A DNA stretch of 64,000 bases. Source: Verrucomicrobiota bacterium (GTDB lineage: Bacteria > Verrucomicrobiota > Verrucomicrobiia > Chthoniobacterales > JAFAMB01). A program made the position numbers and the translations under genes. Where the stretch lies: the NCBI GenBank assembly GCA_019239825.1, contig JAFAZK010000053.1, forward strand, positions 1 through 64,000. The letters are read 5' to 3'. Below, piece after piece: positions 9,441 to 59,985 of the stretch. Each line of letters opens with the position of its first letter. The stretch's first letter is position 1. The notes beneath the pieces are model-generated. The model saw only the letters and a list, made by a program, of their open reading frames with translations, ran no database searches and was not told the origin of the DNA.

Positions 9441-9500
9441 GGCCACCAAGGATGCACGGGCGGAGACAGAAAGCAATGAGGTCTGGGCCCTTGGGGTCCT

Positions 9501-9717: not shown

Positions 9718-9755
9718 TCGACGACGAGGACGATTTGTTTATCTAAAAATTCTGT

Positions 9756-11246: not shown

Positions 11247-11309
11247 ATCGGCCGCCATTGTCCCGAGTGGAGCAAATAGAGCAAGCCGATTTCGTGGTCA
11301 GAATGAAAT

Positions 11310-11597: not shown

Positions 11598-11609
11598 GTT
11601 TGTGCCCGC

Positions 11610-23854: not shown

Positions 23855-24062
23855 AGTTCAACCGCAGATGGACGCAGATAACAGGACAAGAACCGCGAAT
23901 GGACACGAATGAACGCGAATAGATTCGGACCGACCACAGAGACACAGAGAACCAAGAGACTTCTGGAACCATCCCTGTAAGTCTCACTCCGTGGTATCTC
24001 TGTGTCTTTGTGGTGAATCTTTTCATTATTCGCGTCCATTCGCGTCTATTCGCGGTTAGGTT
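23855..24062. repeat. Inverted pair of 10-nt (and 9-nt) arrays (AACGCGAATG / CCACAGAGA types)
   Basis: accgcgaatg gacacgaatg aacgcgaata ... ttcgcgtcca ttcgcgtcta ttcgcggtta. Confidence 0.8.
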
Positions 24063-24071
24063 CTGTGGTTT

Positions 24072-25262
24072 TCAGGCTAAACGTTTACGGGTAACTCGAG
24101 CAGTTAATATGAAAAAGAGGGTCGCGAAGCCGGCTAGAACCACGGAGTTAAACGCGACAATTCGCCAGACATCGCCGGCTAGAAAGATCGTTTGCAGGGC
24201 CTGGACAAAGTAGCGGGCCGGAAAAAGAAAAGTCAGGAACTGCAGAATCTTCGGCATGCTGGAAATCTCGAACAAAAAGCCGGACAGTTGAAAACCGGGC
24301 AAGAAACCCAAGATGATCGCAAACTGGCCGGCTACGAACTGGCTCTTAGAAAGTGTCGACACCCAAAGACCGATACCTAACCCGCAGGCCAGGAACAGAG
24401 ATGTGACCAAGAACAACGACAAAATCGACCCACGTAACGGTGTATGGAACACGAAGACCGCAACGATCGTGCAGAAGAGCATCGAGCCTACGCCCAGTAA
24501 GAAATAGGGAATCAATTTTCCCAGGACTAATTCTTGAATCGCCACCGGCGTCGCCATCATCGCTTCCATGGTCCCCCTCTCCCATTCTCGGGCTACCACC
24601 AGTGCCGTTAACAAAGTGCCGATCATGGTCATAATGATCGCGATCGAGCCCGGCACCAGGTAGTTCTTGCTTTCGAGAGAAGGGTTGAACCAATTCCGTG
24701 TCTCCACATTGACCATACTGTTAACCGGCGCCCCCGTTTCCATGCCGCGTTCTTGTAGCCAAAGCGTAACCACCGCTTCCAGGTAGGACTCGGCAAAAGC
24801 CGCCGTATTTGGTTCACTGCCATCCCCAATTATCTGCAACGGCGCCGAATTAGTGGTCGATTGAAGCCGGCGCGAAAAATCGATTGGAACCACTAAGAGC
24901 GCCCTTATCCGTCCCGCCACCATTTCCCGTTCGAGGAAACGCCGGTCGAAACTCGCGGTAACATCAAGATATTTCGAGTTGCGCAGACTAATCAGGAGAT
25001 TTTCCGAATCGGGTGTTCGTCCTTCCAGCGCCACGCCCACTCGGACTCGCGTCGAATCCAACGAAACCGCATACCCAAAAAGAAACAGTAACATGATCGG
25101 CAGAATGAAGGCGATCAGGATACTGCTCGGGTCATTGACAATCTGGATCAGTTCCTTACGTACCAAGGCCCCCAACCGTCTCCAACTGAACCGCCGATTC
25201 TTGTTAGTCATGGCCATACCTCCGAACAACCGCCAGCAAATCAACTCCCGAAGATCAACCAC
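24072..25262 (-). CDS. ABC-2 type transporter permease (YbhS-like)
   Basis: Paralogous ABC2 membrane protein; likely start about 25211-25217 (MAMTNKNRRF). Confidence 0.92.
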   Translation of the reverse strand: MVDLRELICWRLFGGMAMTNKNRRFSWRRLGALVRKELIQIVNDPSSILIAFILPIMLLFLFGYAVSLDSTRVRVGVALEGRTPDSENLLISLRNSKYLDVTASFDRRFLEREMVAGRIRALLVVPIDFSRRLQSTTNSAPLQIIGDGSEPNTAAFAESYLEAVVTLWLQERGMETGAPVNSMVNVETRNWFNPSLESKNYLVPGSIAIIMTMIGTLLTALVVAREWERGTMEAMMATPVAIQELVLGKLIPYFLLGVGSMLFCTIVAVFVFHTPLRGSILSLFLVTSLFLACGLGIGLWVSTLSKSQFVAGQFAIILGFLPGFQLSGFLFEISSMPKILQFLTFLFPARYFVQALQTIFLAGDVWRIVAFNSVVLAGFATLFFILTARVTRKRLA

Positions 25263-25545
25263 AGATCGACGCGGATTGATGCAGATAAATGATTAACCGC
25301 GAATGGACGCGAATAAGGATTGAATCCAATTCAGGAGTAGGACACGCACAGAGGCTATTCAACTCTTCTCGAACGAGTTTCGTTCTGTGCACTCTGTGTC
25401 TCTGTGGTGGAATTTTGGTCTTCATCCGCGTTAGTTCGTGTCCATTCGCGGTTAATCTTTTATCAGCGTTAATCTGCGTCCATCTGCGATTCGTCTTTAT
25501 GCCTTTCGTGTTCATTCGCGGTTACTTTTTGTTTTCATTCGCGGT
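25255..25545. repeat. Nested inverted 10-nt arrays between exporter genes, overlapping the ATPase stop codon
   Basis: accgcgaatg gacgcgaata ... ttcgcggttaatcttttatcagcgttaatctgcgtccatctgcg ... ttcattcgcggtta. Confidence 0.8.
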
Positions 25546-27330
25546 ATCGAAACGTTGAATGATTCGGATGAAGGTCTCCTCCATGGTGGGATCCGATAGG
25601 TCAGCGGACTTAACACTGCGCTTCAGGGCGTCTGGTGTATCGAGCGCAATGAGTTTGCCGCGATAGACTAACCCAATGCGGTCGCAATACTCCGCCTCAT
25701 CCATGAAGTGGGTTGTCACCATCACAGTTACGCCTTTCTCGACCAGGCCGTTGATATGCAACCAAAACTGGCGCCGGGTAATGGGGTCAACACCGGAAGT
25801 CGGTTCGTCCAGGAACAATACATCCGGTTCGTGCATCAAAGCGCAGGCCATGGCCAGCCGTTGTTTGAAACCTAGCGGTAATTGTCCCGAGGCGTTGCCT
25901 AAATGATTCTCCAAACCGAACGCATGGATCATGCGATCGATGGCCGAGCTTCTCCGTTTACCTTGCAATCCATAGACTCCGGAAAAGAAATCGAGGTTCT
26001 GTTGGACCGTTAGATCACCGTAGAGCGAGAATTTCTGCGCCATATAGCCGATCCGGTTCCGAGCCGCGCTTCCTGACTTCCGAAAGTCAATTCCCACTAT
26101 CCGAGCCGTTCCGGAAGAAGGCTTTAACAGACCACATAACATTTTGAAGGTAGTCGACTTCCCCGCGCCGTTGGGTCCAAGCAGGCCAAAGATCTCGCTT
26201 CGGTTGACAGAAAAGGTCACGCGATCCGTCGCTACAAAGTGGCCAAAGCGCTTGGTTAAATCGTGGGCATCGATAACCGTCCCGCCATCGTGCTCAAGAT
26301 GTGGCATCGTACTGGCCACCAGCGATTCTTCCTTAGGCAATCCACCAAGGGTATCGACAAACGCATCCTCGAACCGCGGCGCTACCGCACGTAGATGCCG
26401 ATCATCCGCGAATTGTTCGATCCCTTCCTGAGAGCTACCCTCCTTCAGCACCAGGCGGATGTGATCTCCCTGGACGACACCATCCACCACTGCCGGTGAG
26501 CGCAACGCGTCGGCCAAGATCTTCCGTCGATTATTAGCGACTAGTAATTGGAAGGTTCGCGAGCGTACCCGGTCGGTAAGTTCTTTCGGTGGTCCATCAA
26601 AGATTTTTTTGCCTTCATGCAGAAGGATTACCGCATCACAGAGCTCAACCTCATCCAGGTAAGCGGTACTCCAAATAACTCCGATCCCCTCTCCCACTAA
26701 GTCTTGTACCATTTTCCATAGATCTCGCCTGGATATCGGATCGACACCGACACTCGGTTCGTCGAGTAACAACAGATCCGGTTTGCTGACGAGCGCGCAG
26801 GCTAAACCCAATTTTTGCTTCATCCCTCCTGATAAGGCGCCGGCTTTCCGTTCCTGGAAACGTTTTAAATCAGTAAAAGTGAGCAACCGATCAAAGCTTG
26901 CTTGTCTCTCCTCGCCAATGATCCCGCGCAGTTCCGCGTAGAGTTGAAGGTTCTGCATCACGCTTAGATCTTCGTAGAGACCAAACCGTTGAGGCATATA
27001 TCCGATCCGAGACCTGATTTCCTCCGGCTGGGTTGTGGGATCAAAACCAAGAACCCGGATACTTCCGGCCGTCGGGAGCAGCAAACCTGCTAATAGCCGC
27101 ATCAGCGTCGTCTTTCCTGCGCCGTCGGGTCCTGCTAGCCCCGTGATAGCGCCACCGACCACCCGGGTATCAAGATGATCCAAAGCCGGAGCCGCCCCTT
27201 CCCTGAAGGATTTAACTAATCCGGTAGTTTCGACGAGCGGTAGGGACGAGCGGGAGCTCGTTCCTACCGATTGCGACAACGCACCGTTCCCGGCGTTAAC
27301 TCTTGGGCTGCTCTGGTTCATGGTGTTCAT
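25522..27330 (-). CDS. Tandem-domain ABC transporter ATPase (YbhF-like)
   Basis: Two Walker A motifs (GPDGAGKTTLMR, GPNGAGKSTTFK) and two signature/Walker B regions. Confidence 0.96.
   Translation of the reverse strand: MNTMNQSSPRVNAGNGALSQSVGTSSRSSLPLVETTGLVKSFREGAAPALDHLDTRVVGGAITGLAGPDGAGKTTLMRLLAGLLLPTAGSIRVLGFDPTTQPEEIRSRIGYMPQRFGLYEDLSVMQNLQLYAELRGIIGEERQASFDRLLTFTDLKRFQERKAGALSGGMKQKLGLACALVSKPDLLLLDEPSVGVDPISRRDLWKMVQDLVGEGIGVIWSTAYLDEVELCDAVILLHEGKKIFDGPPKELTDRVRSRTFQLLVANNRRKILADALRSPAVVDGVVQGDHIRLVLKEGSSQEGIEQFADDRHLRAVAPRFEDAFVDTLGGLPKEESLVASTMPHLEHDGGTVIDAHDLTKRFGHFVATDRVTFSVNRSEIFGLLGPNGAGKSTTFKMLCGLLKPSSGTARIVGIDFRKSGSAARNRIGYMAQKFSLYGDLTVQQNLDFFSGVYGLQGKRRSSAIDRMIHAFGLENHLGNASGQLPLGFKQRLAMACALMHEPDVLFLDEPTSGVDPITRRQFWLHINGLVEKGVTVMVTTHFMDEAEYCDRIGLVYRGKLIALDTPDALKRSVKSADLSDPTMEETFIRIIQRFDTANENKK
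27238..27269. repeat. Family F hairpin inside the ATPase 5' coding region
   Basis: cggtagggacgagc-ggga-gctcgttcctaccg, one mismatch. Confidence 0.75.
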
Positions 27331-29922: not shown

Positions 29923-30200
29923 TGGAGGGGAGCCGCTTTGGATCGCGATCGACGAACCCGCGCTATTTCTCTCGGCGCGTGTGTGGCGACAAATCATGTT
30001 AAACAGGCGGCTCCCGCTAATGACCCCAGGGCCTGGTTTGTCTCTTGGTGCGTGAAATAGCTCATTTAAACCAAACGCTGGACGAAACATCGCGCTGGGT
30101 AGTTTCCGGGAGCCGCCTGTTTAACTCAGTTTGTGGCCTTTCGCGCGCTGGAAACAAATACGCGGGGTCGTTGGTCACATGCTAAAGCGGCTCCCCTCCA
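29923..30200. repeat. Family A nested inverted-repeat element, copy A1
   Basis: Outer tggaggggagccgctttg / aaagcggctcccctcca; inner perfect 19-bp gttaaacaggcggctcccg / cgggagccgcctgtttaac. Confidence 0.9.
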
Positions 30201-30229
30201 GTGCGCCGCTCCTAGCTGCACCACACTGC

Positions 30230-30880
30230 TTACTTTCCCGCCCTCCCGGCCTGCAAAATGTCCTTCCATCCTTGTACGACACCCTCTGCGCTCATTATCC
30301 TCTCGAAGACATCGGGTGCGACTCCGCGATAGGCAGCTTGATTTACTAAGCTAACAGAGATTGGATCGTTAAATCGGTTTTCTAATGCCCAGTTATCGCG
30401 GGTATTCACAATCCCTGGTTGTAAGACCTGTAGATAAAAGCCAGTCCGCATTGAGTCGATCGTCCCCTTCAAAAAGCCGTTCAGACCGAGCTTCCGTTCC
30501 TGTTTCCAACAGGGCCCTCGTGGACCGGAGACCTGGACAATGGCGGTTCCCACTCTGTAAACGTCGCCACAGAAAACGGTCTCTTCGTCCCCTCCGCTAA
30601 TCGTCCAATTCTCACCTACGCTACCTGGACCGAGACTGCGTTCGCCGTCTAGATCGTAGGCGGCGTTCCAGAAATCGTAGTGTACGATCGGGTGGACGCA
30701 GACGGCTTGGCCGGGCCGACCGTGATTTTTTGGGTCCGCGACCTGGTCCCCGGCTAAACTTCGCTCCCGTAGCTCAATCGGTCCTTCGACCCGGGTCCGA
30801 TAGATGGCAGACAACCAGGTCCCCTTTTCATCCGTGATGCTCTTTGGCTCGCCTATAAAGATTGCTTCAATGCGAATCAT
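30230..30880 (-). CDS. MOSC domain-containing protein
   Basis: MIRIEAIFIGEPKSI, LAGDQVADPKNHGRPGQAVCVHPIVHYDFW. Confidence 0.92.
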   Translation of the reverse strand: MIRIEAIFIGEPKSITDEKGTWLSAIYRTRVEGPIELRERSLAGDQVADPKNHGRPGQAVCVHPIVHYDFWNAAYDLDGERSLGPGSVGENWTISGGDEETVFCGDVYRVGTAIVQVSGPRGPCWKQERKLGLNGFLKGTIDSMRTGFYLQVLQPGIVNTRDNWALENRFNDPISVSLVNQAAYRGVAPDVFERIMSAEGVVQGWKDILQAGRAGK

Positions 30881-30965
30881 ACCTTCCGATCGATATCTTG
30901 AAATAAAGATCCGCCAAATCGCATCTTAACTCCAGACAACTCCGCGCTGGTGAACCATCCTCGTT

Positions 30966-32756
30966 ATGTCTAGTCAAGCCTCGATGAGCCGAACTGTAAA
31001 TAGGCGCGGTTGGCTAAAATTATCCGCTCTATTTCTAGCGCTGTTTTTCTGCTTCAAACTGGAAGGCGCCAATGAGATCCCCTGGCGGCCATGGTCCGAC
31101 TCGATTTTTAACGAGGCCAGACAGCAAGGCCGGTTTGTGTTGCTCGATCTTGGAACCGGGTGGTGTCACTGGTGCCACGTAATGGAAGAAGTCACTTACG
31201 CAGACCCGGCTGTGGTCGATCTAATCCGCTCACACTACCTTGCGATCCGGGTTGATGCAGATTCTCGGCCTGACCTTGCCAATCGATATGAGGACTATGG
31301 CTGGCCGGCTACTATCGTGTTTAACTCGGATGGCAGCGAGATCGTTAAACGCCAAGGCTATATCCCTCCAAAGCCGATGGCTTCAATGCTACAAGCGATC
31401 ATTGATGATCCATCGCCCGGCCCTTCGATACTTCCCGAACCGAAACTATCCAGTTCTGATCAGCCCTTTCTATCCGACTTAGCCATTGATCGCCTGCGGC
31501 AACGGTTGATCGACTCTTACGATTCAAAGAATAAAGGTTGGGGCACGGTCCAGAAGTTCCTAAACTGGGACACTATCGAATATTGCCTCTTTTACAGCAT
31601 GTCAGGCGACACCGATTTCGCCCGCATGGGTCGCGAAACGCTCACAGCCCAACTCAACTTGATCGACCCGATTTGGGGAGGCGTTTGTCAATATTCTACA
31701 GATGGAGATTGGGAACATCCGCATTTCGAAAAGATCATGCAGATGCAGGCGGAAAATATCCGGGCTTATGCAGAGGCCTATGCGGTATGGGGTGATCCTG
31801 TTTACCTTAATACCGCGGCGAAGATCTATGGCTATTTAAAGAGTTTTCTGATGTCATCGGACGGGACCTTCTATGCGAGTCAAGACGCCGACCTTACTCC
31901 GAGTGAACATTCCGCTGATTACTTTAGACTAGGGAACTCCGAACGCCGAAAGCTCGGCATCCCGCGGGTGGACAAACACGTCTACTCTCGAGAAAACGGT
32001 TGGGCGATCAATGCTCTGGCTGTGCTCGGCGCGATATCCGGCGAGCGCCAACCTTTGCAGGATGCGATCCGGGCCGCGAATTGGGTTGTCGAACATCGAA
32101 GAATGCCGGCAGGCGGCTTTCAACATGACGACATCGATAAAGCCGGACCTTATCTCGCTGATACTTTATACATGGGCCGCGCTTTCCTGACTCTTTACAT
32201 GGCAACGGCAGACCGCAGTTGGCTTCGACAGGCCGAGGACGCCGGCAATTATGTTGATCAACAATTCAAAGGAGAGCTCGGTTATTTAACTTCTGCTTCT
32301 ATCGGTACTTTGAAAGCTAAGCCTCAAATTGACGAGAACGTTGACGTCGCTCGGTTCGCTAATTTGCTCGAGAAGTACAGCGGGATTGCGACGTACGGGA
32401 CGATGGCCAAGCACGCGATGCGGTTTCTGAGCATCCCTGCTGTGGTCGACGAACGCGGCTTTCTCGTCGCAGGAATTCTTCTAGCTAATCACGAATTAAC
32501 GACTTCGCCGCTCCACGTAACCGTAGTAGGCCCTAAAACCGACACCATCGCTTCCTCATTGTTCCAAGCCGCCCTAAAACTCCCTGCCTTTTATAAACGA
32601 GTGGAATGGTGGGACAGCCAAGACGGTGCCTTACCGAATGCCGACGTTGAATACCCGGTGCTAGACAATGCAGCAGCCTTTATTTGCGGCGAGCACAGCT
32701 GTTCTCCGCCAGTCTTTTCGGCGGAGAAGTTAGCAATGGTGGCCGGCAAAAGGTAG
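30966..32756 (+). CDS. Thioredoxin-fold DUF255/YyaL-like protein
   Basis: LLDLGTGWCHWCHVMEEVTYADPAVVDLI; long (alpha/alpha)-barrel-like C-terminus. Confidence 0.9.
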   Translation: MSSQASMSRTVNRRGWLKLSALFLALFFCFKLEGANEIPWRPWSDSIFNEARQQGRFVLLDLGTGWCHWCHVMEEVTYADPAVVDLIRSHYLAIRVDADSRPDLANRYEDYGWPATIVFNSDGSEIVKRQGYIPPKPMASMLQAIIDDPSPGPSILPEPKLSSSDQPFLSDLAIDRLRQRLIDSYDSKNKGWGTVQKFLNWDTIEYCLFYSMSGDTDFARMGRETLTAQLNLIDPIWGGVCQYSTDGDWEHPHFEKIMQMQAENIRAYAEAYAVWGDPVYLNTAAKIYGYLKSFLMSSDGTFYASQDADLTPSEHSADYFRLGNSERRKLGIPRVDKHVYSRENGWAINALAVLGAISGERQPLQDAIRAANWVVEHRRMPAGGFQHDDIDKAGPYLADTLYMGRAFLTLYMATADRSWLRQAEDAGNYVDQQFKGELGYLTSASIGTLKAKPQIDENVDVARFANLLEKYSGIATYGTMAKHAMRFLSIPAVVDERGFLVAGILLANHELTTSPLHVTVVGPKTDTIASSLFQAALKLPAFYKRVEWWDSQDGALPNADVEYPVLDNAAAFICGEHSCSPPVFSAEKLAMVAGKR

Positions 32757-32772
32757 GAGCAGCAGGCACACA

Positions 32773-32896
32773 TTTGGTGGGGCGGGGCTCCCGAATGGCT
32801 AAATCGGTATAGCGAAGCCTTCAGTGGTCCTCGTTGACTTGCGCAATTAGGCCGTTCAACGCGCCGAGCCGTTGATCTATCGTGGGCCACGCGCAA
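32773..32896. repeat. Truncated family B element, copy B5
   Basis: tttggtggggcggggctcccgaatgg ... aacgcgccgagccgttgatctatcgtggg matches the left half of B3; stops at the A2 boundary. Confidence 0.75.
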
Positions 32897-33173
32897 TGGA
32901 GGGGAGCCGCTTTGGCATGTGCCCCAAGGGACCTCGCCCTATTCTTCTAGGCGCGTGTAGGACCACAAATGCCATCAAACAAGCGGCTCCCGGAAACGAC
33001 CCTAACGCGTGGTTTGTCTCTTGGTGTGAAATAGGACAACCGGGGCAAACGGTGGACAAAACATCACGCTGGGTAAAACGCGGGAGCCGCTTGTTTAACC
33101 CGATGTTTGGCCTTCCCCGCCGTGGAAAGAATATGCGAGGTCCTTGGTCACGCACAAAAGCGGCTCCCCTCCA
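32897..33173. repeat. Family A element, copy A2
   Basis: tggaggggagccgctttg ... aaacaagcggctcccgg ... cgggagccgcttgttta ... caaaagcggctcccctcca. Confidence 0.9.
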
Positions 33174-33191
33174 GGGCCGCACCCGGCTGCC

Positions 33192-33986
33192 TCACGCCAC
33201 CACTTTCAACATCCCACCATCCACAAAATAGGCAGACCCCACCGAATAACTGGCCCTCGGTGAACACATAAAAACGAAGAAATGCGCAACCTCTTCCGGG
33301 GTAGCAAAGCGGTCAATGGGCGCCCACTCGCGAGCGACGCCGTCCAGATGCGCTTGCCAGTCGCCGCCTTTGTCAGCGGTTAACTGTTTGGCGGTCTTGA
33401 TCCAGTCGGGAGTCAGCACCAAGCCAGGATTGATCGTGTTGACGCGAATATTGTCTTTGATGAGTTCGGTCGCGAGTGTCTTCGAGAACATCAGCAAGGC
33501 GGCCTTGGTGGTGTTATAGATCGGCTCGTACCAGAGCGGTTGTACGGTACAGACAGAGCCATTGTGCAAAATCACGCCACCGCCACGTTTCCGCATCGAG
33601 GGAACCAGACCACGAGCCAGCCTGACCGCCGCCATTACATGCAGGTTCCAATAGTATTCCCACTTTTCGTCCGGGGCTTCCATGATGGTCTCATTGCTGC
33701 CGGTTCCGGCATTGTTTATCAGAATGTCCGCGCCCCCGAATTCGGTTTCCGCCGCCTTCACCAAGGCATCAACCCCGGCGGTATTGGCGACATCTGCTTC
33801 GACGCCGACCGCTCGCACCTTGAACTTATCGGCCACTCGCGCTGCTTCCGCTTTGACGCGATCCGCCCCGCGCGCTGCCAAAACCAGGTTCACTCCTTCC
33901 GCCGCCAGCCCTTCGGCAACTGCTAAACCGATGCCAACACTGCCGCCGGTAATGACGGCCACTTTGTTTTTCAGTTCTAGATCCAT
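33192..33986 (-). CDS. Short-chain dehydrogenase/reductase
   Basis: TGGSVGIGLAVAEGLA, NNAGTGSNE, YNTTKAALLMFSK. Confidence 0.94.
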   Translation of the reverse strand: MDLELKNKVAVITGGSVGIGLAVAEGLAAEGVNLVLAARGADRVKAEAARVADKFKVRAVGVEADVANTAGVDALVKAAETEFGGADILINNAGTGSNETIMEAPDEKWEYYWNLHVMAAVRLARGLVPSMRKRGGGVILHNGSVCTVQPLWYEPIYNTTKAALLMFSKTLATELIKDNIRVNTINPGLVLTPDWIKTAKQLTADKGGDWQAHLDGVAREWAPIDRFATPEEVAHFFVFMCSPRASYSVGSAYFVDGGMLKVVA

Positions 33987-34022
33987 AGTAGTTTTACGAA
34001 AACGCGATAGCCGAAAACATAG

Positions 34023-34113
34023 AAGTAATCAGTGATCAGTAAGTCAGTAATCAGTGATTTTCGAGTTCCAACGATTTCCACTGATTACTGATTCACTGGT
34101 TACTGATTACTTT
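34023..34113. repeat. Inverted pair of 7-nt arrays (AGTAATC type)
   Basis: agtaatcagtgatcagtaagtcagtaatcagtgatt ... ctgattactgattcactggttactgattactt. Confidence 0.8.
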
Positions 34114-34131
34114 TGTGTTCTCGAGGCAGAT

Positions 34132-35082
34132 TCACTTCACAATAACAATCTTGGTTCGATCAATAGTAAGGGCGACCGCCACAATCAGTACTAGCCCAAA
34201 AACAATCTGTTGGGCGAAAATGTTAACGCCGATAAAGGTCATACCGACTCGGACGATCGTGATGATCAGTGCGCCAACGGCGGTCCGCCCTACTCCCCCG
34301 GCTCCGCCCGTGATAGCGGTGCCGCCCACAATGACTGCAGCGATCGCAGGCAACAACAACTGGTCAGCCAGAGTCGGCGATCCGCTGCCTTGCCGTCCGG
34401 CCATCAATACGCCAGCCAAAGCCGCTAGGGTACCGGAAACGGCAAACGCGATGATTTTATACCGGTTCACCTGGACACCGGATGCCCAAGTCGCAGGCTC
34501 ACCGGCGCCGATGGCGATACTGTACCGGCCGAAAGGCGTATATTTCTGAGACCAGATCCCCAGGATCGCGATGAAGGCAGCCACCCAAATTACGTTGGGT
34601 AAACCGAGGAATTCGCCGTTAACCCAGGCAAGATGAGCACGCCCAGCCTCATCGATGCTAATGGCGCGTTCATGCGAGAACAGCAGAGCGGCTGAGACCA
34701 ATAGACCGCTGGTCGCAAGCGTCACGATAAAGGAAGGAATCTTGAGCCAGACGTGTAGTAGTCCGTTGATTATGCCAATCAAAAGCCCCATCCCGACCGC
34801 AATCGGAAACGCCGCGTATCCGTACGCTGGCAACATGATCGCGACGATCACGCTAGCAAAAGAACAGATCGCTTGAATTGAGAGATCGATGCTTCCCAAC
34901 ATCACCACGAAGGTCGTGCCAGCACCAAGCATGAACAAAATAGCGGTATCAGCGACGGTTACAATAAGGCTGCCCACGTTGAAGAAGCCCGGCCGTAACG
35001 TCCCGATCACCAGTACCAGACCGACCAGCACCAATATCGGAGCGAGAGCGCGTAGCCTTTCTGCGTAGTTGCGTTTCGCCAT
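34132..35082 (-). CDS. Sugar ABC transporter permease (RbsC-like)
   Basis: BPD_transp_2-type sequence; VMLGSIDLSIQAI, GGTAITGGAGGVGRTAVG. Confidence 0.95.
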   Translation of the reverse strand: MAKRNYAERLRALAPILVLVGLVLVIGTLRPGFFNVGSLIVTVADTAILFMLGAGTTFVVMLGSIDLSIQAICSFASVIVAIMLPAYGYAAFPIAVGMGLLIGIINGLLHVWLKIPSFIVTLATSGLLVSAALLFSHERAISIDEAGRAHLAWVNGEFLGLPNVIWVAAFIAILGIWSQKYTPFGRYSIAIGAGEPATWASGVQVNRYKIIAFAVSGTLAALAGVLMAGRQGSGSPTLADQLLLPAIAAVIVGGTAITGGAGGVGRTAVGALIITIVRVGMTFIGVNIFAQQIVFGLVLIVAVALTIDRTKIVIVK

Positions 35083-35084
35083 TG

Positions 35085-36602
35085 TTACACCATGTGCTGG
35101 ATCAGATCGACTTGAGCCGGTTTGCTACCGGGCATCGCATCGAATCGTGCCGTTACTTCTCCATCGCGCATTACTAAAATCGAGTGAGACAAACCAATGG
35201 TTTCTTCCAACGTATCCGCCGTCAGGATAATTGCGATCCCCTGCTCTGATAGAGTCCGCATCAGATCGTACACCTCTTCCTTAGCGCCCACATCGAGTCC
35301 GCGAGTCGGATGATCGAAAATCAAGATCCGGGAGCGTGCATTCATCCATTTTGAAAGCACTACCTTTTGTTGGTTACCGCCGCTCAAGTTTAAGCAAAGA
35401 GCGTCGACGCCGGGCGTGCGAACTCGCAGTCTCTCCACCCAGGTCTCAGCCAGTTTCCGCTCTTTACCGCTTTGGATGGCGCCTCCTTTCATGACTGTCC
35501 GGAGACTGGCCAAGGTGATGTTTGGGACGATCGACAACGTCAATACCAGCCCTTCGACTCGCCGTTCCCGCGGTATATACCCGATCCCTATAGCTGCGGC
35601 TTGGTCTGGCGAAGTCAACCGAGCCGCTCTCCCAGCGACCATCAACTTCCCGGACGACTGCGGAAGAAAACCAAAGAGCGTTCGCGTCAATTCTTCCCTG
35701 CCCGAACCAATGACCCCGGCAATCCCCAGAATCTCACCTTCTCGTAAAGTAAAATTGACGTTGCGGTACCCGCCCTGCACGGTCAGGCTTTCGGCCTGCA
35801 TCGCCACTTTGGTGGTGGGCGGCTTTTGCCGGGCCTCCCGGTAATACTCAGCATGCAGTTCCCGCCCGACCATTAGCCGATGTAGATTCGGTACACTCGT
35901 TTGCGCCGCCGGCATCTGAGCGACTACTTTTCCGTCTTTCATTACATAGACGCGATCCGAGATCTGCAACACTTCGTCGAGCCGATGGGACACAAAGACG
36001 AAGCTGGCCCGAGTCCTCAGCGCGCGGACGCGTTCGAAGAGAATGTCTATTTCCCGTTGTTCTAATACCGAGGTCGGTTCATCCAACAAAATCACCAGAT
36101 GGCGTTCTGTCCGTTCCTCCAAGGCCAACGCTTTGGCCAGTTCAACCATTTGGCGTTCGGCGAAGCTGAGATGGGCGGTGCGAGTTGCCGGATCAATATC
36201 GAGTTGGACCTTGTCTAGCTGCCGCTTAGCGGCTGCGTGCACTGCCGGCCACATGACAACACCCCACCGACTAAATTCCTTTTCCTGACCAAGATAGATA
36301 TTCTCCGCCACCGTCAGGTTCGGTAATAACGACTGTTCCTGGAATACAATTCCAATGCCGTGCAGATTCGCGTCCCGCGGGCTGGTTAAAGTCAAGGGCT
36401 TACCGTCTAGTGCCAGATTGCCGCTATCCGGTCGATACACTCCGGCCAGAATCCGGATCAACGTTGATTTACCAGCGCCATTCTCGCCAACTAAGCCAAC
36501 GACTTCCCCAGGCCTGATCTCGATGGACACTCGGTCCAAAGCCTGGACGCCGGCGAATGCCTTGCTGACATCAGTTAAATTGAGTAGAGCTGCTTCGGGC
36601 AT
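35085..36602 (-). CDS. Sugar ABC transporter ATPase (RbsA-like, tandem domains)
   Basis: GENGAGKSTLIRILAGVYRPDSG; LSGGNQQKVVLSKWM. Confidence 0.97.
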   Translation of the reverse strand: MPEAALLNLTDVSKAFAGVQALDRVSIEIRPGEVVGLVGENGAGKSTLIRILAGVYRPDSGNLALDGKPLTLTSPRDANLHGIGIVFQEQSLLPNLTVAENIYLGQEKEFSRWGVVMWPAVHAAAKRQLDKVQLDIDPATRTAHLSFAERQMVELAKALALEERTERHLVILLDEPTSVLEQREIDILFERVRALRTRASFVFVSHRLDEVLQISDRVYVMKDGKVVAQMPAAQTSVPNLHRLMVGRELHAEYYREARQKPPTTKVAMQAESLTVQGGYRNVNFTLREGEILGIAGVIGSGREELTRTLFGFLPQSSGKLMVAGRAARLTSPDQAAAIGIGYIPRERRVEGLVLTLSIVPNITLASLRTVMKGGAIQSGKERKLAETWVERLRVRTPGVDALCLNLSGGNQQKVVLSKWMNARSRILIFDHPTRGLDVGAKEEVYDLMRTLSEQGIAIILTADTLEETIGLSHSILVMRDGEVTARFDAMPGSKPAQVDLIQHMV

Positions 36603-36606
36603 CAGT

Positions 36607-37644
36607 TTATTTCACAAATTTCATCCGCTGGCGATCAATCGAGACAGCGACTGCGATGATGATGATCACCCCTTGAACTGCCTGCTGCAGATCGGGAGAG
36701 ATGCCGAGCAAAACCATCCCGTTGCCAAGCACCGCGATAATCAAGACGCCAACCAGGGTGTTAAGCACACCACCGGAACCTCCGCTTAGAGATGTACCCC
36801 CAACGACCACAGCCGTAATTGTGGAGAACAAGCGGCCGTCACCAATAGTCGCATTCCCTTGGCCCAACTGAGCGGCCGCTAACACACCTCCAATTCCGTA
36901 AAAGGCGCCGGCCAGGGTGAATACTAAAATCTTGACTCTCTCGATGTGGATCCCGGAAAGGGCGGCCAGATCTTCTCCGCCTCCAATGGCAAACACGTGC
37001 CGGCCGAAAACGGTGAACCGTTCAATCAGCCAGCCCAGAACCAGAATCCCGACGGCAACCCAGACGGCTAACGGGAAATTGAGGAATCGAGTTAAGGCTA
37101 GACCACGAATCTGTGGATCGAGAACTCTGGCATTGGTCCCACCCAAAATCAGGGTGGCTAGACCGATCCCGACAAACCAACTCCCGAGGGTCACCATGAA
37201 CGATGGGATACGCGCCTTGACATGAATCACTCCATTCAAAAAGCCGATTGATGCGCCCGCGGCGATCGAGAACAGCGGCGCAAACCAGCCAAATGAATTT
37301 TGGTTCATATCGTTATGAACCAGGATGGCAACCACCACCGCCCCGAACGCCAGTACTCCTTCGACCGACAGGTCGACGCTGCCGAGAATGATCACAAACG
37401 TTGCCCCCATGGCGAGGACCAGCGGAATCGCCGCGGAGTTCGCGATGCGGACAAAATTAAAGAAGTCGAAGAAACGAGGGTTGCGGAAACCGATCAGCAG
37501 CGACAATGCGACCAGCGCAATCAAGGGCGCTAAAGACTTGATGCGTTCAAGCGACTTCCGCGAAAGCATTTTCCTTTTCGTCGGAGGACGTTGAATCGAT
37601 GCAGCTTCGGGAGTTGTCTTGGGGGGGCCTTGGTTTACTGCCAT
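36607..37644 (-). CDS. Sugar ABC transporter permease (RbsC-like)
   Basis: VIILGSVDLSVEGVLAFG, GGTSLSGGSGGVLNTLVG. Confidence 0.95.
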   Translation of the reverse strand: MAVNQGPPKTTPEAASIQRPPTKRKMLSRKSLERIKSLAPLIALVALSLLIGFRNPRFFDFFNFVRIANSAAIPLVLAMGATFVIILGSVDLSVEGVLAFGAVVVAILVHNDMNQNSFGWFAPLFSIAAGASIGFLNGVIHVKARIPSFMVTLGSWFVGIGLATLILGGTNARVLDPQIRGLALTRFLNFPLAVWVAVGILVLGWLIERFTVFGRHVFAIGGGEDLAALSGIHIERVKILVFTLAGAFYGIGGVLAAAQLGQGNATIGDGRLFSTITAVVVGGTSLSGGSGGVLNTLVGVLIIAVLGNGMVLLGISPDLQQAVQGVIIIIAVAVSIDRQRMKFVK

Positions 37645-37704
37645 GGGAACTTCTTAGAAATCTTTCGCGCGCTCGTAACCGCGCGTCGAATGGTCACCGA
37701 CACC

Positions 37705-37950
37705 TGGAGGGGAGCCGCTTTGTAGCGTCGCAGCTCTGTCATTGCGCAGCAAGCGGCTCCCGGAAACCACCCACGATGTGCTTTGTCTCTCTACGCCCGA
37801 TCATGTTTCCCGGTGCATCGAGAACACAGGCGTAGATCTCACACGCTGGGTTACTAGCGGTAGCCGCCTGTTGTCACGTTTTCAGGCCTGGATCACGATA
37901 GAACAAACATCGAGAGTTTCTAAGGCGCGTTCCAAAGCGGCTCCCCTCCA
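37705..37950. repeat. Family A element, copy A3 (diverged core)
   Basis: ctggaggggagccgctttg ... caaagcggctcccctccag; inner aagcggctcccggaaa / tagccgcctgtt. Confidence 0.85.
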
Positions 37951-37960
37951 GTTAATTCAC

Positions 37961-39094
37961 TCAACTGGCAACGTTCCCCCAGTAGTCGTTCCAATCGACC
38001 TTCGGGGTAGACAGCACGTAGTCCTTTAAAAATTGGTCCACGGTATCTTTCGTCACCAAGATTCCCTTGGCGTTGTAGTCGCGATGGTTCTGCGGTTCCT
38101 TGGCCACATCAAATTTTCCGAGGCGTGCTGCCAATCCGATCGAGAGCCCCATCCCGCCTTGCCAATAGGGATTCCACGAGGCGGTCGCCGCCATATCCCC
38201 ACTCTTCACCGCTTCCACGGCAAGCTTGATACCATCCGTGCCGCAAACCGGGATTTTTCCGGCCAGACCTTCCGCTCTCAGAGCTTCCAAAGCACCACTC
38301 GCCATATCGTCGTTCGCACACCAGATACCTTTGATGTCATTGCCGAAACGAGTCAGCCAAGTCCCGGTGATGGTGAACGCTTCTGACGCTTTCCAGTTGG
38401 CGACCTGGAAATCGAGAAGCTTGATGTTCGGATTCGCGGCCAAGGCTTTCTCTAACCCTTGTTTGCGTTGAATAGCCGGCGTGTTCGAAAGGATCCCACC
38501 CAGTCCAACAATTCCGCCCGATCCTCCAAACGCCTTGAATAAAGCCTCGGCGGTCTGCTGACCGTAGGTCACCCCGTTGAAGAGGATGTGACATACGTAG
38601 TAAGGATTAAAATCTTGCGGATGCAGATCGTCAGGCTTGTTCCATTGGGTTACCACATGCGCCTTTGCGTTAACGCAGGCTTCAACGATGGCGCGAGCAT
38701 CCGGAGAATCGTTTGGATCGACGTTCAGCACCAAATTGCCGCCGGTCTTGGCAACGATCGCTCGCACATCGGCGATTCCTTTTTCGCTGTTACCTTCTGT
38801 AACCAGGGTGACGTACTCGCAGCCCACCGATTTAGCAAAGTCCGCGCCGCCTTGGTTCCAGGTCGCATGATAAGGATTAGCGAGCGACCGAATGGAATTG
38901 ACCAGCACCGGCTTATTGTCAGCGGCAAATAGGTTACGCGGAATTGCGCCCCAAACCGCGGTTGCACCGGTTAACGCCGCAGCGCGGCGGATAAATGTCC
39001 TACGAGGGATACGCAGGACCGAAGAATCATCATTCTGTGAGTTCATAGTGGCGATCTTTCCGACCCGGAACCGATTGAATGGTTGCTGACGCAC
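37961..39094 (-). CDS. Sugar-binding protein (RbsB-like periplasmic binding protein)
   Basis: Type-I periplasmic-binding fold pattern with Tat-like IPRRTFIRRAAALTG leader. Confidence 0.9.
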   Translation of the reverse strand: MRQQPFNRFRVGKIATMNSQNDDSSVLRIPRRTFIRRAAALTGATAVWGAIPRNLFAADNKPVLVNSIRSLANPYHATWNQGGADFAKSVGCEYVTLVTEGNSEKGIADVRAIVAKTGGNLVLNVDPNDSPDARAIVEACVNAKAHVVTQWNKPDDLHPQDFNPYYVCHILFNGVTYGQQTAEALFKAFGGSGGIVGLGGILSNTPAIQRKQGLEKALAANPNIKLLDFQVANWKASEAFTITGTWLTRFGNDIKGIWCANDDMASGALEALRAEGLAGKIPVCGTDGIKLAVEAVKSGDMAATASWNPYWQGGMGLSIGLAARLGKFDVAKEPQNHRDYNAKGILVTKDTVDQFLKDYVLSTPKVDWNDYWGNVAS

Positions 39095-39172
39095 GTCAGC
39101 GACGGGGGAACAAAGCCGAGGCTATGCTCTGAGAACGAAAAATCAACAAGGAAATAACACTACTGGAATAAA

Positions 39173-39362
39173 GTGAGAGGTGAGAAGTGAGACGTGAGAG
39201 GTGAGAAGCTCAAGCCGTTCGGCGGTTCCCACTTCAGGCGCTGGCGGCAGGTTCTTTCGACGCACCACATGATGCATAATGCGTGACAAAGACGTAGTGT
39301 TGCTCCGACATACCAGCGAGCAGCCCGTTGCTGCCTCTCACCTCTCACGTCTGACGTCTCAC
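39173..39362. repeat. Inverted pair of 7-nt arrays (GTGAGAG type)
   Basis: gtgagag gtgagaa gtgagac gtgagag gtgagaa ... cctctca cctctca cgtctga cgtctca. Confidence 0.85.
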
Positions 39363-40375
39363 CAAAGAAGCTCGCCGGGCAGGCGTTCAATCAACTGAGG
39401 CAGATTGGACACTACGTCTACGGTGTCCGACCGTAGTAACACTTCGGCGGCAAGTGATTCTGCGTGAGGGTCGCCTGCGGGAAGGCAGACAAGATAGTCT
39501 TCGACCGCTGAATTCTGGTTACGCAGGTCCACGATATCGACGGGAAAACTACGCATCTCACCGCTCGGCTCGAGCGGGATGGTCATATAAAAGTAAGGCA
39601 CCTCCAATGTTCGCGCGACGTGATTGATCGCTCCCCACACCGCTTTGGTGCAAAGAACTACCTTCCAATGGTTGGACAGCCGAGTCAGCGCGGCTGCGTT
39701 TAGATCCACGATCACCAATTGTGCCCGAAAATGCAGATCAATATTTCGATGGAGACAGAGCCGGAGCAGAGAACCCAGGGCCGGCCAATGGATTGAGTCT
39801 GACCACCAATAGGTCTCATCCCAACTACGACGGGTTACCTTCGGTAGCAGGTTTCCGCTAAACAGCTCTTGGCTGGCGCCTAGCATCGCTCGCTCAAAAA
39901 GGTCGGGAATATCGCGCCCGGAACTCGCCTGCAGAAAAGACTTCTGAGCGGTCGTATCGGCAGCATAGGCGCGCAAAGAAGGGTATCTCTCGCTGCCCCG
40001 CCACAACTTGGATCCCTCAACTTGGAAAATTGAGAGATCATGCAACTCGTCGGTAACCGTCTCCATGACAAGTTCCTGCAGATCGCGGCGGAGTCCCTCC
40101 CCATTTTGGCGGAAAAGCTTTTGCTGTGAAGAAATCGCCCATTTGTCCGAGTCGGGGCTTCTAGCAGCGCCCACTACGCTCCCGAGGAAGTGATCCGATA
40201 ACAGGTGGGTCTGTAACCGCCGAAGAGCCAAGCGGCTGATGAATGCTTCGTCGGTCGGAGGAGCAACTTGTCGGAACCGAAGCGAAGCAAAACCACGGCC
40301 TCGTCGCTGCGATACACTTTCCTCTACAAATTCCGCCTCTCCGCGGAGAAGTCGGGGTTCCAGGAGCTTTATCAT
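39359..40375 (-). CDS. Hypothetical protein
   Basis: 338-aa ORF with coding-like composition; no family recognised. Confidence 0.7.
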   Translation of the reverse strand: MIKLLEPRLLRGEAEFVEESVSQRRGRGFASLRFRQVAPPTDEAFISRLALRRLQTHLLSDHFLGSVVGAARSPDSDKWAISSQQKLFRQNGEGLRRDLQELVMETVTDELHDLSIFQVEGSKLWRGSERYPSLRAYAADTTAQKSFLQASSGRDIPDLFERAMLGASQELFSGNLLPKVTRRSWDETYWWSDSIHWPALGSLLRLCLHRNIDLHFRAQLVIVDLNAAALTRLSNHWKVVLCTKAVWGAINHVARTLEVPYFYMTIPLEPSGEMRSFPVDIVDLRNQNSAVEDYLVCLPAGDPHAESLAAEVLLRSDTVDVVSNLPQLIERLPGELLW

Positions 40376-40506
40376 TAAAAGGCCTGCGTATTAGCAGATC
40401 GAAGCAAATGAAAGCAAGCAAGAACCACGCTTCGCGCACATTTCTCCTTGACAAGTTGGCCCTATGAAGGGGGAAGTAATCACTAACCAAGTGGGTACTA
40501 AATAGT

Positions 40507-40823
40507 TAGGAACGAGGAGCGAGAATCTAGGAGCTAGGAGGGAGGGCCTATCTTTGGTGGGGCGAGGCTCCCGAACGTCGAGGTGGTGTAGCGAAGTGCA
40601 TAGTGCTCCTCGTTGAGTTGCATTACTAGGCCATTAAACGCGCCGAGCCGTGGGTATGTCGTGGCCGACGGCTCGGCGCGTCTTGGAGGCCTCGCCCATC
40701 GATTTTTCGGCGTTCTTGCCTTTTAGCCCTGCTCGAATCATTTGGCTCTTTGGGAGCCTCGCCCCACCAAATATGCGCTAGCCTCTCCCAGCTCCCAAAC
40801 TGATTACTGCACCACTGATTACT
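40507..40823. repeat. Inverted pair of 7-nt arrays enclosing element B3
   Basis: taggaac gaggagc gagaatc taggagc taggagg ... ctagcct ctcccag ctcccaa actgattactgcaccactgattac. Confidence 0.65.
40553..40771. repeat. Family B element, copy B3
   Basis: Outer tttggtggggcgaggctccc / gggagcctcgccccaccaaa; inner acgcgccgagccgt / acggctcggcgcgt perfect. Confidence 0.9.
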
Positions 40824-41517
40824 TCTCCGCCTTATGCGCCGCAATAACCGCCATTGGACCCCGGCGCCAAACGACTTCCACGTTAGTAAACCCGGCGTCG
40901 TGTAGGAGATGTAGCTCGGTTTGGATTTCGAAGTATCGGTCTTCGGCTGACCATTGCTGAAAATGTGAGTCCGCTTCAGCCCTGGTGAAGCCGCAAGCAA
41001 TAAGATGCTTTGCCCAACCCGACCGCATCCATCGCTCTAACGGGCTGTTCTCAGCGAACATCGCGTCAGCGTTAATGAAGATCCCGTGAGGCGCCAACGC
41101 GCCGAGGATCTTGCGGTACAGACGCCGTTTCTCCGCTGGTTCGCGAACATGGTGCAACGCCAACGAGGCCATACAGGCGTTGGAAGGATGAGGCAACGGG
41201 CCAAAAAAGTCTCCGAGAACATGCGTAACTCTGGGTAACAAATCCGCTAACCGTTCCCGCGCCTCGACGATCATCGCCGGATCGGTATCGATTCCGGTAA
41301 CATTGGAGTTTGGGATGCGCTTCAGCACCAAGGCTGCTAGCGAGCCGGTCCCAGTGCCGAGATCCAATACCTGAGGCCGCTCTTGATCGACCAGGTAAAA
41401 CGCCAAATAGTCCGCCAGCTCGCGCAGCATTTCGTCGTAACCAGGAATAAATCGACGGATCAACTGGTCATATTCAGCGATGTCGAGCCGTAGATGGGAT
41501 TCCACCGAGTGAGACAT
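40819..41517 (-). CDS. Class I SAM-dependent methyltransferase
   Basis: VLDLGTGTGSLAALVLKRIPNSNVTGIDTDPAMI. Confidence 0.94.
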   Translation of the reverse strand: MSHSVESHLRLDIAEYDQLIRRFIPGYDEMLRELADYLAFYLVDQERPQVLDLGTGTGSLAALVLKRIPNSNVTGIDTDPAMIVEARERLADLLPRVTHVLGDFFGPLPHPSNACMASLALHHVREPAEKRRLYRKILGALAPHGIFINADAMFAENSPLERWMRSGWAKHLIACGFTRAEADSHFQQWSAEDRYFEIQTELHLLHDAGFTNVEVVWRRGPMAVIAAHKAEK

Positions 41518-41642
41518 AGGAATGGAATTTAAACAGGTTACCAGCCGGCCGAGCCAATGGTTAGCGGCCCAGTCTGGATATAGTAGTCCTTTTCTGTTGG
41601 GATTGAATCAGTTTTATCAGCCGGCGCTCATCGCCGCCTGGA

Positions 41643-41751
41643 AATGAGCGATGACAAATGACAGATGACAAATTGGGGCTGATGACCCAGACGGTGCCGC
41701 TGCCTGAAGGCACAATCTGTCATTTGTCATTTGTAATCTGTCATCCGTAAT
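41643..41751. repeat. Inverted pair of 7-nt arrays (ATGACAA type)
   Basis: atgagcg atgacaa atgacag atgacaa ... ctgtcat ttgtcat ttgtaat ctgtcat. Confidence 0.85.
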
Positions 41752-41757
41752 TACCTC

Positions 41758-42228
41758 ATGCCCTCCCATCATTATTCGTTGACGACCGTCTGGACTGGCA
41801 ACGCCGGCAAAGGAACCTCCGGTTACCGCGACTACGAACGTTCGTACGAGGTCCGTATTCCCCAAAAGCCGGTTCTGCTCGGTTCGTCTGATCCAAAATT
41901 TCGAGGAGATCCGGCGCGTTATAACCCTGAAGATCTGCTACTGGCGTCGTTATCCGCGTGCCATATGCTTTGGTACCTCCATCTTTGCTCGGACCAAAAG
42001 ATCATCTGCAGTCATTACTCCGACACCGCCGAGGGAGAAATGGAAATCGCAGCCAATGGCGCCGGGCGATTTACCAAGGTGATACTGCATCCGGAGATTG
42101 TGATTAATTCGGAGGCAGGGTTGAAGGCCGCTCACGAGCTTCACGAACGTGCTCATGCGCTGTGCTTTATCGCAAATTCAGTAAATTTCCCAGTTGAGGT
42201 TAGCCCGACGATTCGCGTGGAAAGCTAG
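41758..42228 (+). CDS. OsmC-family protein
   Basis: NPEDLLLASLSACHMLWYLHLC. Confidence 0.93.
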   Translation: MPSHHYSLTTVWTGNAGKGTSGYRDYERSYEVRIPQKPVLLGSSDPKFRGDPARYNPEDLLLASLSACHMLWYLHLCSDQKIICSHYSDTAEGEMEIAANGAGRFTKVILHPEIVINSEAGLKAAHELHERAHALCFIANSVNFPVEVSPTIRVES

Positions 42229-42387
42229 ACTCAGAGATAGCCGCGAAAAGGCGCAGAAAACACAAAAAACAAACCGCAGATGAACGCAGATTTACGCAGA
42301 TAGATTCTGCGAACCGTGGGAGCGCAGCGTGATAACGCTGCGAAGGGCCGAAAATCGCGCCCGTTGGGAGGCGCGGTAGCAGCGGAC

Positions 42388-42663
42388 TGGAGGGGAGCCG
42401 CTTTAGCACGCGGCCAATGACCTCACGTATTCTTTCCAACGCGAGGAATGTCAAAACATCGGGTTAAACAAGCGGCTCCCGGAAATTACCGAGCGCGATG
42501 TTTGGTCCAGCGTGCGGTTCGAACGATCTATTTACATACCGAGACACAAACCACGCGTTGAGCCGTTCGCGGGAGCCGCCTGTTTAACGGAATTCGGGGC
42601 CTTACACGGTCCGGGAGAAATCGGGCCGGTCCTTTGGGTACGATCCAAAGCGGCTCCCCGCCA
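42388..42663. repeat. Family A element, copy A4 (core in reverse orientation)
   Basis: tggaggggagccgcttt ... gttaaacaagcggctcccgg ... cgggagccgcctgtttaac ... aaagcggctccccgcca. Confidence 0.88.
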
Positions 42664-43504: not shown

Positions 43505-43933
43505 ATGCGCGTAACGCAGATCGATCATGTGGAACTCGAGGTACCAGACCGCTACGCCGCGGCCCGTTGGTATCAAACGGTCTTGGGTTTCGAGATTTGT
43601 CCGGAATATGAGCCCTGGGCCGGGGCCAGGCGCGGCCCACTAATGGTCTCAACCGATGGCGGCGAAACCAAACTCGCTCTATTTGAAGGCCAGCCCCAAG
43701 GGCTTGAGCGCCCAATCGGTATCCGCCGAATTGCGTTTAGGATTGGAGGGAATGATTTTATAAGATTGATCGAAGAATTAGATGACCTCAAAGGAGAAAA
43801 TGCCGTCAATCGCTCCGAAATCACCGATCACGGAAAGTCGTTCTCGGTCTACTTCAGCGATCCCTATGGTAACCAGTTAGAGGTCACCACGTACGATTAC
43901 GAAACGGTGCGGGCTAAGCTCGCAAAGCGGTAG
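43505..43933 (+). CDS. VOC/glyoxalase-family protein
   Basis: [44 protein letters not shown]. Confidence 0.92.
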
Positions 43934-43958
43934 GGACGAGCTCCTGCTCGTCCCTACC
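43929..43958. terminator. Family F perfect hairpin containing both convergent stop codons
   Basis: ggtagggacgagc-tcct-gctcgtccctacc; VOC stop 43931-43933, GH42 stop 43954-43956. Confidence 0.8.
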
Positions 43959-52067: not shown

Positions 52068-53042
52068 TCACCGGACTAATTTCTTAATCACTTCCGTGAT
52101 CAGTTCTACCGTCGGAACCGAGTTTACCTCCAAAGCGGGCGCCACTGGAATCGGCACGTCTTCTCCGGCGATGCGGACAATGGGTTCCTCCAGGAAATCG
52201 AAACACTCTTCTTGGATACGAGCGCTGATTTCGGCCGCAGGCCCGCCGGTCAGGCAAGCCTCAGTAACGACAATCGCTTTGCCGGTCTTCGTCACGCTGC
52301 CGCCGACGGTCTCTAAGTCCAGAGGATTTAGTGTTCGGAGATCAATAACTTCGGCTTCCACTCCATGAGCGGCAGCATTCTCCGCAGCGGCTAGCGCGTA
52401 GTTCAACATCCGAGAATAGGTCACCACCGTTACCTGCTGCCCGGGACGCCTGACGACCGCACGTCCCCAACTCGCATCTGCCTGTGTGGGATCCAGTTTA
52501 CCTTTTTGCACATAGAGCGCTTTATGCTCGATGAACACGACCGGGTCCGGTTGCCGCAGAGACGCCCGCAAAAGATGGTAGGCATCTGACACCGTGCCAG
52601 GCAGAGCGACGCGTAATCCGGGCACTTGAAGAAACCAGCCTTCTAAACTTTGGGAATGTTGAGCAGCAGCGGACCTGCCAGTTCCTCCCTGAGTTCTAAG
52701 GACCATAGGAATCCCCATCTGTCCCCCAAACATATAGCGAATCTTGGCCGCCTGATTCGCGATCTGATCCATGGCGATTCCAGAAAAGTCGACATACATC
52801 AGCTCGGCCACAGGTCGCAGCCCACTCATCGCGGCGCCCACGGCTGCTCCAACGAATCCCGCTTCCGAAATCGGCGAGTCGATGACCCTCTCTTTCCCGA
52901 ACTCTTGTAATAACCCTTTAGTAACTCCATACGCTCCGCCGTAAACACCCACCTCTTCACCAATGATAACAATGGTTGGGTCCTCCATCATGGCATGCCG
53001 CAGAGCCAGTCCCAATGCTTCCCGATAAGTAGTTTCAATCAC
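52068..53042 (-). CDS. 2-oxoacid/acetoin dehydrogenase E1 beta
   Basis: MIETTYREALGLALRHAMMEDPTIVIIGEEVGVYGGAYGVTKGLL. Confidence 0.95.
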   Translation of the reverse strand: MIETTYREALGLALRHAMMEDPTIVIIGEEVGVYGGAYGVTKGLLQEFGKERVIDSPISEAGFVGAAVGAAMSGLRPVAELMYVDFSGIAMDQIANQAAKIRYMFGGQMGIPMVLRTQGGTGRSAAAQHSQSLEGWFLQVPGLRVALPGTVSDAYHLLRASLRQPDPVVFIEHKALYVQKGKLDPTQADASWGRAVVRRPGQQVTVVTYSRMLNYALAAAENAAAHGVEAEVIDLRTLNPLDLETVGGSVTKTGKAIVVTEACLTGGPAAEISARIQEECFDFLEEPIVRIAGEDVPIPVAPALEVNSVPTVELITEVIKKLVR

Positions 53043-53050
53043 GGTAAGAA

Positions 53051-53220
53051 AGAATTAACCGCGAATCGACGCGAATGGACGCGCATCAAGGCAGAAACGA
53101 AGGCCAACCGCAGATGCACGCAGATTGACGCAGATTTCGATTCGCGCGGTAAGTTGCTGTTCATCTGTGGTTGCGGGGTTTTCGATGTTATTCGCGTTTA
53201 TTCGTGTCCATTCGCGGCTA
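53051..53220. repeat. Inverted pair of 10-nt arrays, reaching the E1 alpha stop codon
   Basis: accgcgaatc gacgcgaatg gacgcgcatc ... ttattcgcgtttattcgtgtccattcgcggcta. Confidence 0.8.
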
Positions 53221-59628: not shown

Positions 59629-59684
59629 AACTTGCCCGAGTTCGGGTGCTTGCGCGAGTGTCATGTTACGTTTGGCGTTTGGCG

Positions 59685-59980: not shown

Positions 59981-59985
59981 ATGCA

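Follow-up and report, generated by a model that had tools for sequence, protein, structure and literature searches.

Family A, a high-copy two-hairpin repeat in a Verrucomicrobiota genus, as a probable RAYT-linked mobile element resembling REPINs and BIMEs

The DNA analysed here, called the window throughout, is a stretch of 64,000 nucleotides (contig JAFAZK010000053.1, positions 1 to 64,000) from a metagenome-assembled genome of a Verrucomicrobiota bacterium (G000; estimated contamination 8%), and it carries four copies of a palindromic repeat element that we refer to as family A. The copies are A1 (29923..30200), A2 (32897..33173), A3 (37705..37950) and A4 (42388..42663), none of which has a strand as a whole. 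A preliminary description of the window, made from its sequence alone, had reported these four copies, each with four arms of alternating orientation, and we recovered both copies and arms at these positions. Element limits were taken at the TGGA...TCCA edges, and all four copies are bounded by TGGAGGGGAGCCGCTTT and the complement of TGGAGGGGAGCCGCTTT. The neighbouring genes are ordinary metabolic and transport genes.

An element of about 275 bp consists of two hairpins set head to head, formed by arms 1-2 and 3-4. Each half reads TGGAG plus GGGAGCCGC ... GCGGCTCCC, with the GGAG tag 5' at the foot of the 9-bp GGGAGCCGC stem. Hairpins in the family come in two sizes, 53-56 nt (n = 30) and ~90 nt (n = 227), with a basal stem of 9-11 bp and an inner region of ~35 or ~70 nt. 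A1, A2 and A4 combine two long hairpins, and the hybrid A3 is shorter because it joins a short hairpin to a long one. The first hairpins lie on the plus strand at 29923..30016 (A1; foot TGGAG, arm GGGGAGCCGCTTT, closing arm AAACAGGCGGCTCCCG), 32897..32992 (A2), 37705..37762 (A3; the short type, like the hairpins that flank a transposase gene of the same genome described below) and 42388..42481 (A4; long type). The inverted second hairpins lie on the minus strand at 30107..30200 (A1), 33081..33173 (A2), 37858..37950 (A3; long type) and 42570..42663 (A4; edge GCCA, not TCCA). When folded as single-stranded DNA, seven of these eight hairpins form the 9-11-bp basal stem, which in hairpin 2 of A3 is broken by a stem mismatch; fold z-scores range from -0.65 to -5, with hairpin 1 of A2 at -5.0.

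The preliminary description had allowed two pairings of the arms, a single cruciform (1-4/2-3) or two hairpins (1-2/3-4). Typing the arms of 82 complete elements found 70 whose two hairpins share the A stem (GGGAGCCGC) and 12 that were heterotypic, with the A stem in one hairpin and a C stem (GGGCGTYGC) in the other. In all 12 heterodimers, which probably share descent and so are not 12 independent events, the two arms of a hairpin agree (AA|CC or CC|AA; AC|CA in 0/12), and such agreement holds for 82 of 82 typed elements. The heterodimers show the unit to be the hairpin (1-2 or 3-4) and 1-4/2-3 pairing to be dispensable, the palindromy of arms 1-4 and 2-3 arising because the element is two inverted copies of one unit. 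Of the two pairings, then, heterotypic elements preserve the two hairpins and never the cruciform. This arm-type test took the place of the column-wise covariation that had been suggested as a check, and RNAalifold gave no consensus fold for the inner region of the long hairpins.

The search for a partner gene, also proposed earlier, was positive. It started from A arms lacking their normal partner and led to two contigs of a congener, G003. On C45 (L217), a decayed Y1-transposase frame lies between three direct and three inverted hairpin units, and on C298 an intact 152-aa frame (L223:951-1409) lies between one direct unit and a row of inverted units. The protein encoded by the intact frame matches the NCBIfam model for repetitive extragenic palindromic (REP)-associated tyrosine transposases (RAYTs; NF047646, REP_Tyr_transpos) with 90.2 bits against a cut-off of 80. 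Its sole Pfam domain is Y1_Tnp (23.2, cut-off 23), it falls below the IS200 model NF033573 (22.8 bits versus a cut-off of 55), and its closest solved relative is the TnpAREP structure 4er8 (E 5e-10). A homology search with this protein found relatives in the window's genome (C227, C337 and C327) and in three congeners (G001, G002 and G003). Six loci belong to its own clade, clade 1 (G003 C298, G003 C45, G002 C435, the remnant G002 C742, G000 C227 and G001 C194), and all six have A-stem hairpins on both flanks. Both flanks of the clade-1 relatives (65-100% identity; G000 to G003) have GGAGGGGAGCCGC hairpins, direct on the left and inverted on the right, with 1-5 units each. The four clade-1 RAYTs scanned score 85.9-90.2 bits with NF047646, and the intact ones have EHIH and YVR.NPV motifs.

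Each of the other RAYT lineages goes with a different stem. Clade-2 RAYTs (G003 C350, G002 C503 and G000 C337; 56-60% identical to the query) are accompanied by C-stem hairpins GGAGGGGCGTYGC, the RAYT of G000 C327 (38% identity) is flanked by arms of another repeat family, B, and that of G002 C163 (39% identity), whose protein lies just below the NF047646 cut-off (79.2 versus 80), by arms of a family D. A Y..NP motif is common to all 14 aligned frames, and HxH is intact in all of them except G000 C337, the clade-2 copy of the window's genome, which contains a stop. The Y1_Tnp genes C143, C207 and C118 were rejected as partners; they adjoin other palindromes.

These loci bear on two other accounts of family A. 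The element could be a miniature inverted-repeat transposable element (MITE) of a DDE-type insertion sequence (IS), with the outer arms as terminal inverted repeats, the inner arms as subterminal binding sites, and RAYT loci that merely gather copies. Its ends do form a near-perfect terminal inverted repeat of 16-17 bp and it is palindromic overall (72% across 110 nt in A1), but A arms flank six of six clade-1 RAYTs on both sides and none are found at RAYTs of other clades or at the three IS200-like Y1 genes of the window's genome. Moreover, the tandem single-hairpin units at RAYT loci make the hairpin, not a whole element with terminal repeats, the unit; heterodimers lose 1-4 complementarity while retaining 1-2 and 3-4; and no target duplication is visible in the listed flanks of copies. 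We therefore consider a DDE-type origin very unlikely. The second account holds that the hairpins at RAYT loci are ordinary insertions in a repeat-rich region and that family A spread by slippage or gene conversion. Several often nested palindromic families do crowd the intergenic slots of these genomes. Nevertheless, the stem type on both flanks is particular to each RAYT clade, and with A arms occurring on average once per ~16 kb, symmetric flanking at six loci is not expected by chance, making this account extremely unlikely.

Family A is abundant across the genome, as a proposed copy-number check established. The terminal arm GGAGGGGAGCCGCTTT, allowing at most one mismatch, matches the 6.67-Mb genome 404 times (reversed control, 0), far more than chance would give, which corresponds to about 200 or more copies. 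A blastn search with A2 returned ~40 full copies, and because these are 67-77% identical to A2, family A appears from sequence to be an old, high-copy family. Spacing is regular, with 34 complete copies in 0.83 Mb of the genome holding the order outer-75-inner-105-inner-77-outer. None of 46 elements lies inside a gene predicted by our own codon-usage calls, even though coding sequence makes up 78.5%; tandem gene pairs enclose 20 of the elements, convergent pairs 14 and divergent pairs 7, and 5 are at the edges of contig pieces. Searching viral contigs with the two-arm pattern recovered no family-A element. Insertion into host palindromes was rejected as a general rule. Shuffled flank pairs set the reference, and just 7 of 36 copies lay above their 99th percentile; that these copies are nested in other repeats explains this minority.

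In a set of 57 genomes from the same order, probably Chthoniobacterales to judge by the 0.9-Mb relatives, counts of at least 200 arms are confined to the four genomes of this genus, and no genome beyond these four has a clade-1 RAYT at ≥70% identity. Loci of one of the four, G002, match the GenBank MAG JAFAHI (Verrucomicrobiota bacterium CP_BE_BS_17) at 100%. One further genome of the same taxonomic family (G010) has 7 arms and lacks such a RAYT, and the remaining genomes have 0 or 1 arm. Within the genus, occupancy differs between species. The A3 site has an orthologous copy in G003 and none in G002, the A4 site has one in G002 and none in G003, where an intact terminator-like hairpin with a T-run separates the convergent genes, and A1 and A2 are missing from the orthologous sites of G002. 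At other slots, species differ in whether family A or some other palindromic family is present. We read this pattern as insertion/loss polymorphism at the species scale, not as proof of current movement.

Placement and occupancy also speak to the possibility that family A is a structured RNA, as the preliminary description had considered, or a bidirectional transcription terminator, under selection at gene 3' ends. Its remark that three of the four copies lie between convergent genes holds in the window, and genome-wide it shrinks to a mild excess (14/41 versus ~19% of intergenic space, p = 0.03). The A4 site has lost the T-run that belongs to the intact terminator of G003, and some hairpins fold well (z to -5). 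However, the window has no Rfam match, the long inner region has no conserved fold, sister species hold unrelated palindromes in orthologous slots, and most of the conservation falls on the foot and stem, which flank RAYTs too. A function as RNA or terminator is thus very unlikely.

Where conservation ends is informative about how the repeat might move. In an edge profile over 261 hairpins, pattern selection accounts for conservation of the stem columns but not of foot and flank. Outside the stem, GGAG is conserved, then T (83%) and C (74%), and the next bases fall towards background with a weak GCGC preference. CT stands directly 5' of GGAG in 169 of the 261. For those TnpAREP proteins that have been studied, the tag serves as a guide whose A3G4 picks out CT as the site of cleavage (PMC8266576). 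GGAG keeps A3G4, so that CT is predicted, and this is the edge seen. We infer a mechanism in which the RAYT would bind a single-stranded GGAG hairpin and cleave at the CT beside the foot (5'-CT|GGAG), where conservation stops, and in which the doublet would be excised or inserted by HUH/Y1 chemistry on single-stranded DNA. The autonomous counterpart would be a REPtron, a RAYT (TnpAREP) gene between one to several A hairpins on each side. The loop appears largely free, since 54-nt and 90-nt hairpins have one stem in common.

Family A thus very probably works in the manner of REP doublets forming hairpins (REPINs) and bacterial interspersed mosaic elements (BIMEs), as a mobile repeat that is non-autonomous and linked to a RAYT. 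The support is its two-hairpin anatomy, copy number, extragenic placement, RAYT-flanking hairpins, match of stem to RAYT clade, and orthologous presence and absence; transposition, the cleavage site and any present activity are inferred. The earlier suggestion of a non-autonomous mobile or REP/BIME-like element is accordingly borne out by the RAYT search. Like the REPtrons of RAYTs with REPINs or BIMEs (PMC3116915, PMC2817692, PMC8266576), family A is extragenic, is present in hundreds of copies, and joins two palindromic units head to head. Each stem has a tetranucleotide tag on its 5' side, the RAYT is flanked by the same units, stem sequences are RAYT-specific, and several RAYT/REP pairs occur per genome.

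Several observations weigh against this assignment. The foot of family A is GGAG, whereas described REPs are defined by GTAG/GTGG (PMC6006769, PMC3733652), and its hairpins measure 54-90 nt with a large divergent loop, compared with ~20-60 nt for REP hairpins. Copies just 67-77% identical give no sign of recent bursts in the window's genome. The clade-1 RAYT of that genome (L258), an open frame, has ATT where its relatives have the start ATG, as comparison with L223 reveals, which makes present activity there doubtful; with a stop in the clade-2 copy as well, the family may be inactive in this genome. Most dispersed copies have long hairpins, yet short ones flank the RAYTs of G000, G002 and G003, and only that of G001 has long hairpins at its sides. 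Finally, a nucleotide-exact empty site was looked for at orthologous slots and none was recovered, because these slots diverge and get refilled by other repeats.

For these reasons of tag and loop we do not file family A as a canonical REP and regard it as a variant that works like one. Canonical REPs have a basal stem of 7-20 bp and a loop of 2-5 nt or a short bulged inner stem (PMC6006769); the 9-11-bp A stem fits this range, and the inner region of ~35 or ~70 nt does not. The doublet is also longer (~275 bp versus ~100 bp) than in REPINs and BIMEs, and unlike those described it includes natural heterodimers of two stem types and resides in Verrucomicrobiota.

The second-nearest known system is that of TIRtrons and their TIRYTs, RAYT-like genes with long flanking inverted repeats, some 'double palindromic', that form repeat families (Di Nocera et al. 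2013, PMC3733652). Here too a transposase gene is flanked by inverted repeats that form a repeat family. However, the A arm GGGGAGCC misses the GGGGWSAS motif, whose position 7 is A and not the C of the arm, and unlike TIRYTs, most of which have a helix-turn-helix (C-terminal in subclass 2.1), the A RAYTs are ~150 aa (152 aa) with only Y1_Tnp in Pfam. The GTAG-20 REPs of Opitutus terrae (Verrucomicrobia) are high-copy, with GTAG and mostly GTGG tags (PMC3733652); they share their phylum and a high copy number with family A and are set apart by description through GTAG/GTGG rather than GGAG. As in IS200/IS605 ends, the hairpins would be recognised by a Y1 HUH transposase, which in that group acts on subterminal hairpins, but the partner protein of family A passes the RAYT model and not the IS200 model, and the repeats are dispersed without the gene. 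A literature search, with subscription journals outside its coverage, found GTAG-20 of O. terrae as the one REP description from Verrucomicrobia and no description of family A. It likewise found no named MITE or REP family with a GGAG tag and this size, a match that would have spoken against the original proposal; the kind itself is known.

We regard it as an evenly balanced possibility that RAYT/REP pairs (A, C, B, D and others) have radiated within one Verrucomicrobiota genus and that in at least one clade the RAYT uses a GGAG tag, reads only the foot and 9-bp stem, and tolerates very different loop sizes, so that 54-nt and 90-nt hairpins and heterodimers of two RAYT specificities co-circulate. 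If so, this radiation would be a natural experiment in RAYT/REP co-evolution. The results provide four or more RAYT-stem pairs in one genus and account for a high-copy repeat whose family the preliminary description did not recognise. RAYT specificity and REPIN assembly become directly testable outside Proteobacteria through the heterodimers, the compensatory change of stem from GGGAGCCGC to GGGCGTYGC and the transposase clades matched to the stems. The results also suggest that REP searches restricted to GTAG/GTGG tags and small loops overlook large-hairpin families.

Several other palindromic families are represented in the window as well. Family B, with outer arms TTTGGTGGGGCGAGGCTCCCG and inner arms GCGCCGAGCCG, occurs at 9500-9719, 11309-11599, 32773-32891 (half), 40553-40772 and 59684-59982, and both arm types flank the RAYT at C327:14587-15021 of the same genome. 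A2 starts at the symmetry centre of the half copy at 32773-32891, the right half of which is lost. Family D (GGTAGGGACGAGC...GCTCGTCCCTACC), which flanks the RAYT of G002 C163, resembles a canonical GTAG-type REP and lies at 3529-3561, 27236-27268 and 43926-43958 with the sequence GGTAGGGACGAGCTCCTGCTCGTCCCTACC. Palindromes of AACCGCGAATGGACGCGAAT / CGCAGATGAACGCAGAT occupy 23860-24066, 25251-25532 and 53041-53228 and the flanks of L266, and the clade-2 RAYT of the window's genome sits inside one. Long inverted repeats of AGTAAGCAG / AGTAATCAGT tandem units lie at 4979-5269 and 34012-34123 and at ~18250-18470 of L080, and one of them fills a slot occupied in a congener by an A element. The palindrome GTGGAGCGCTGCCTCGCTTGCGAGGCCGATGCGG goes with a third RAYT clade (L171 2462-2744; L271, L269 and L273), and in L171 an A element lies mid-palindrome in it. 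A fifth RAYT lineage, on L267 (G001:C405), has arms CGTGGTGGGGCGAAAAGC...GCGCGCCAAGCGGTTCTTTTAT and their approximate inverse, apparently another large-hairpin family. Two long direct repeats at 60633-61221 and 62435-63020 (261 and 300 nt; 70-73% identical; 1.8 kb spacing) are probably tandem paralogous genes.

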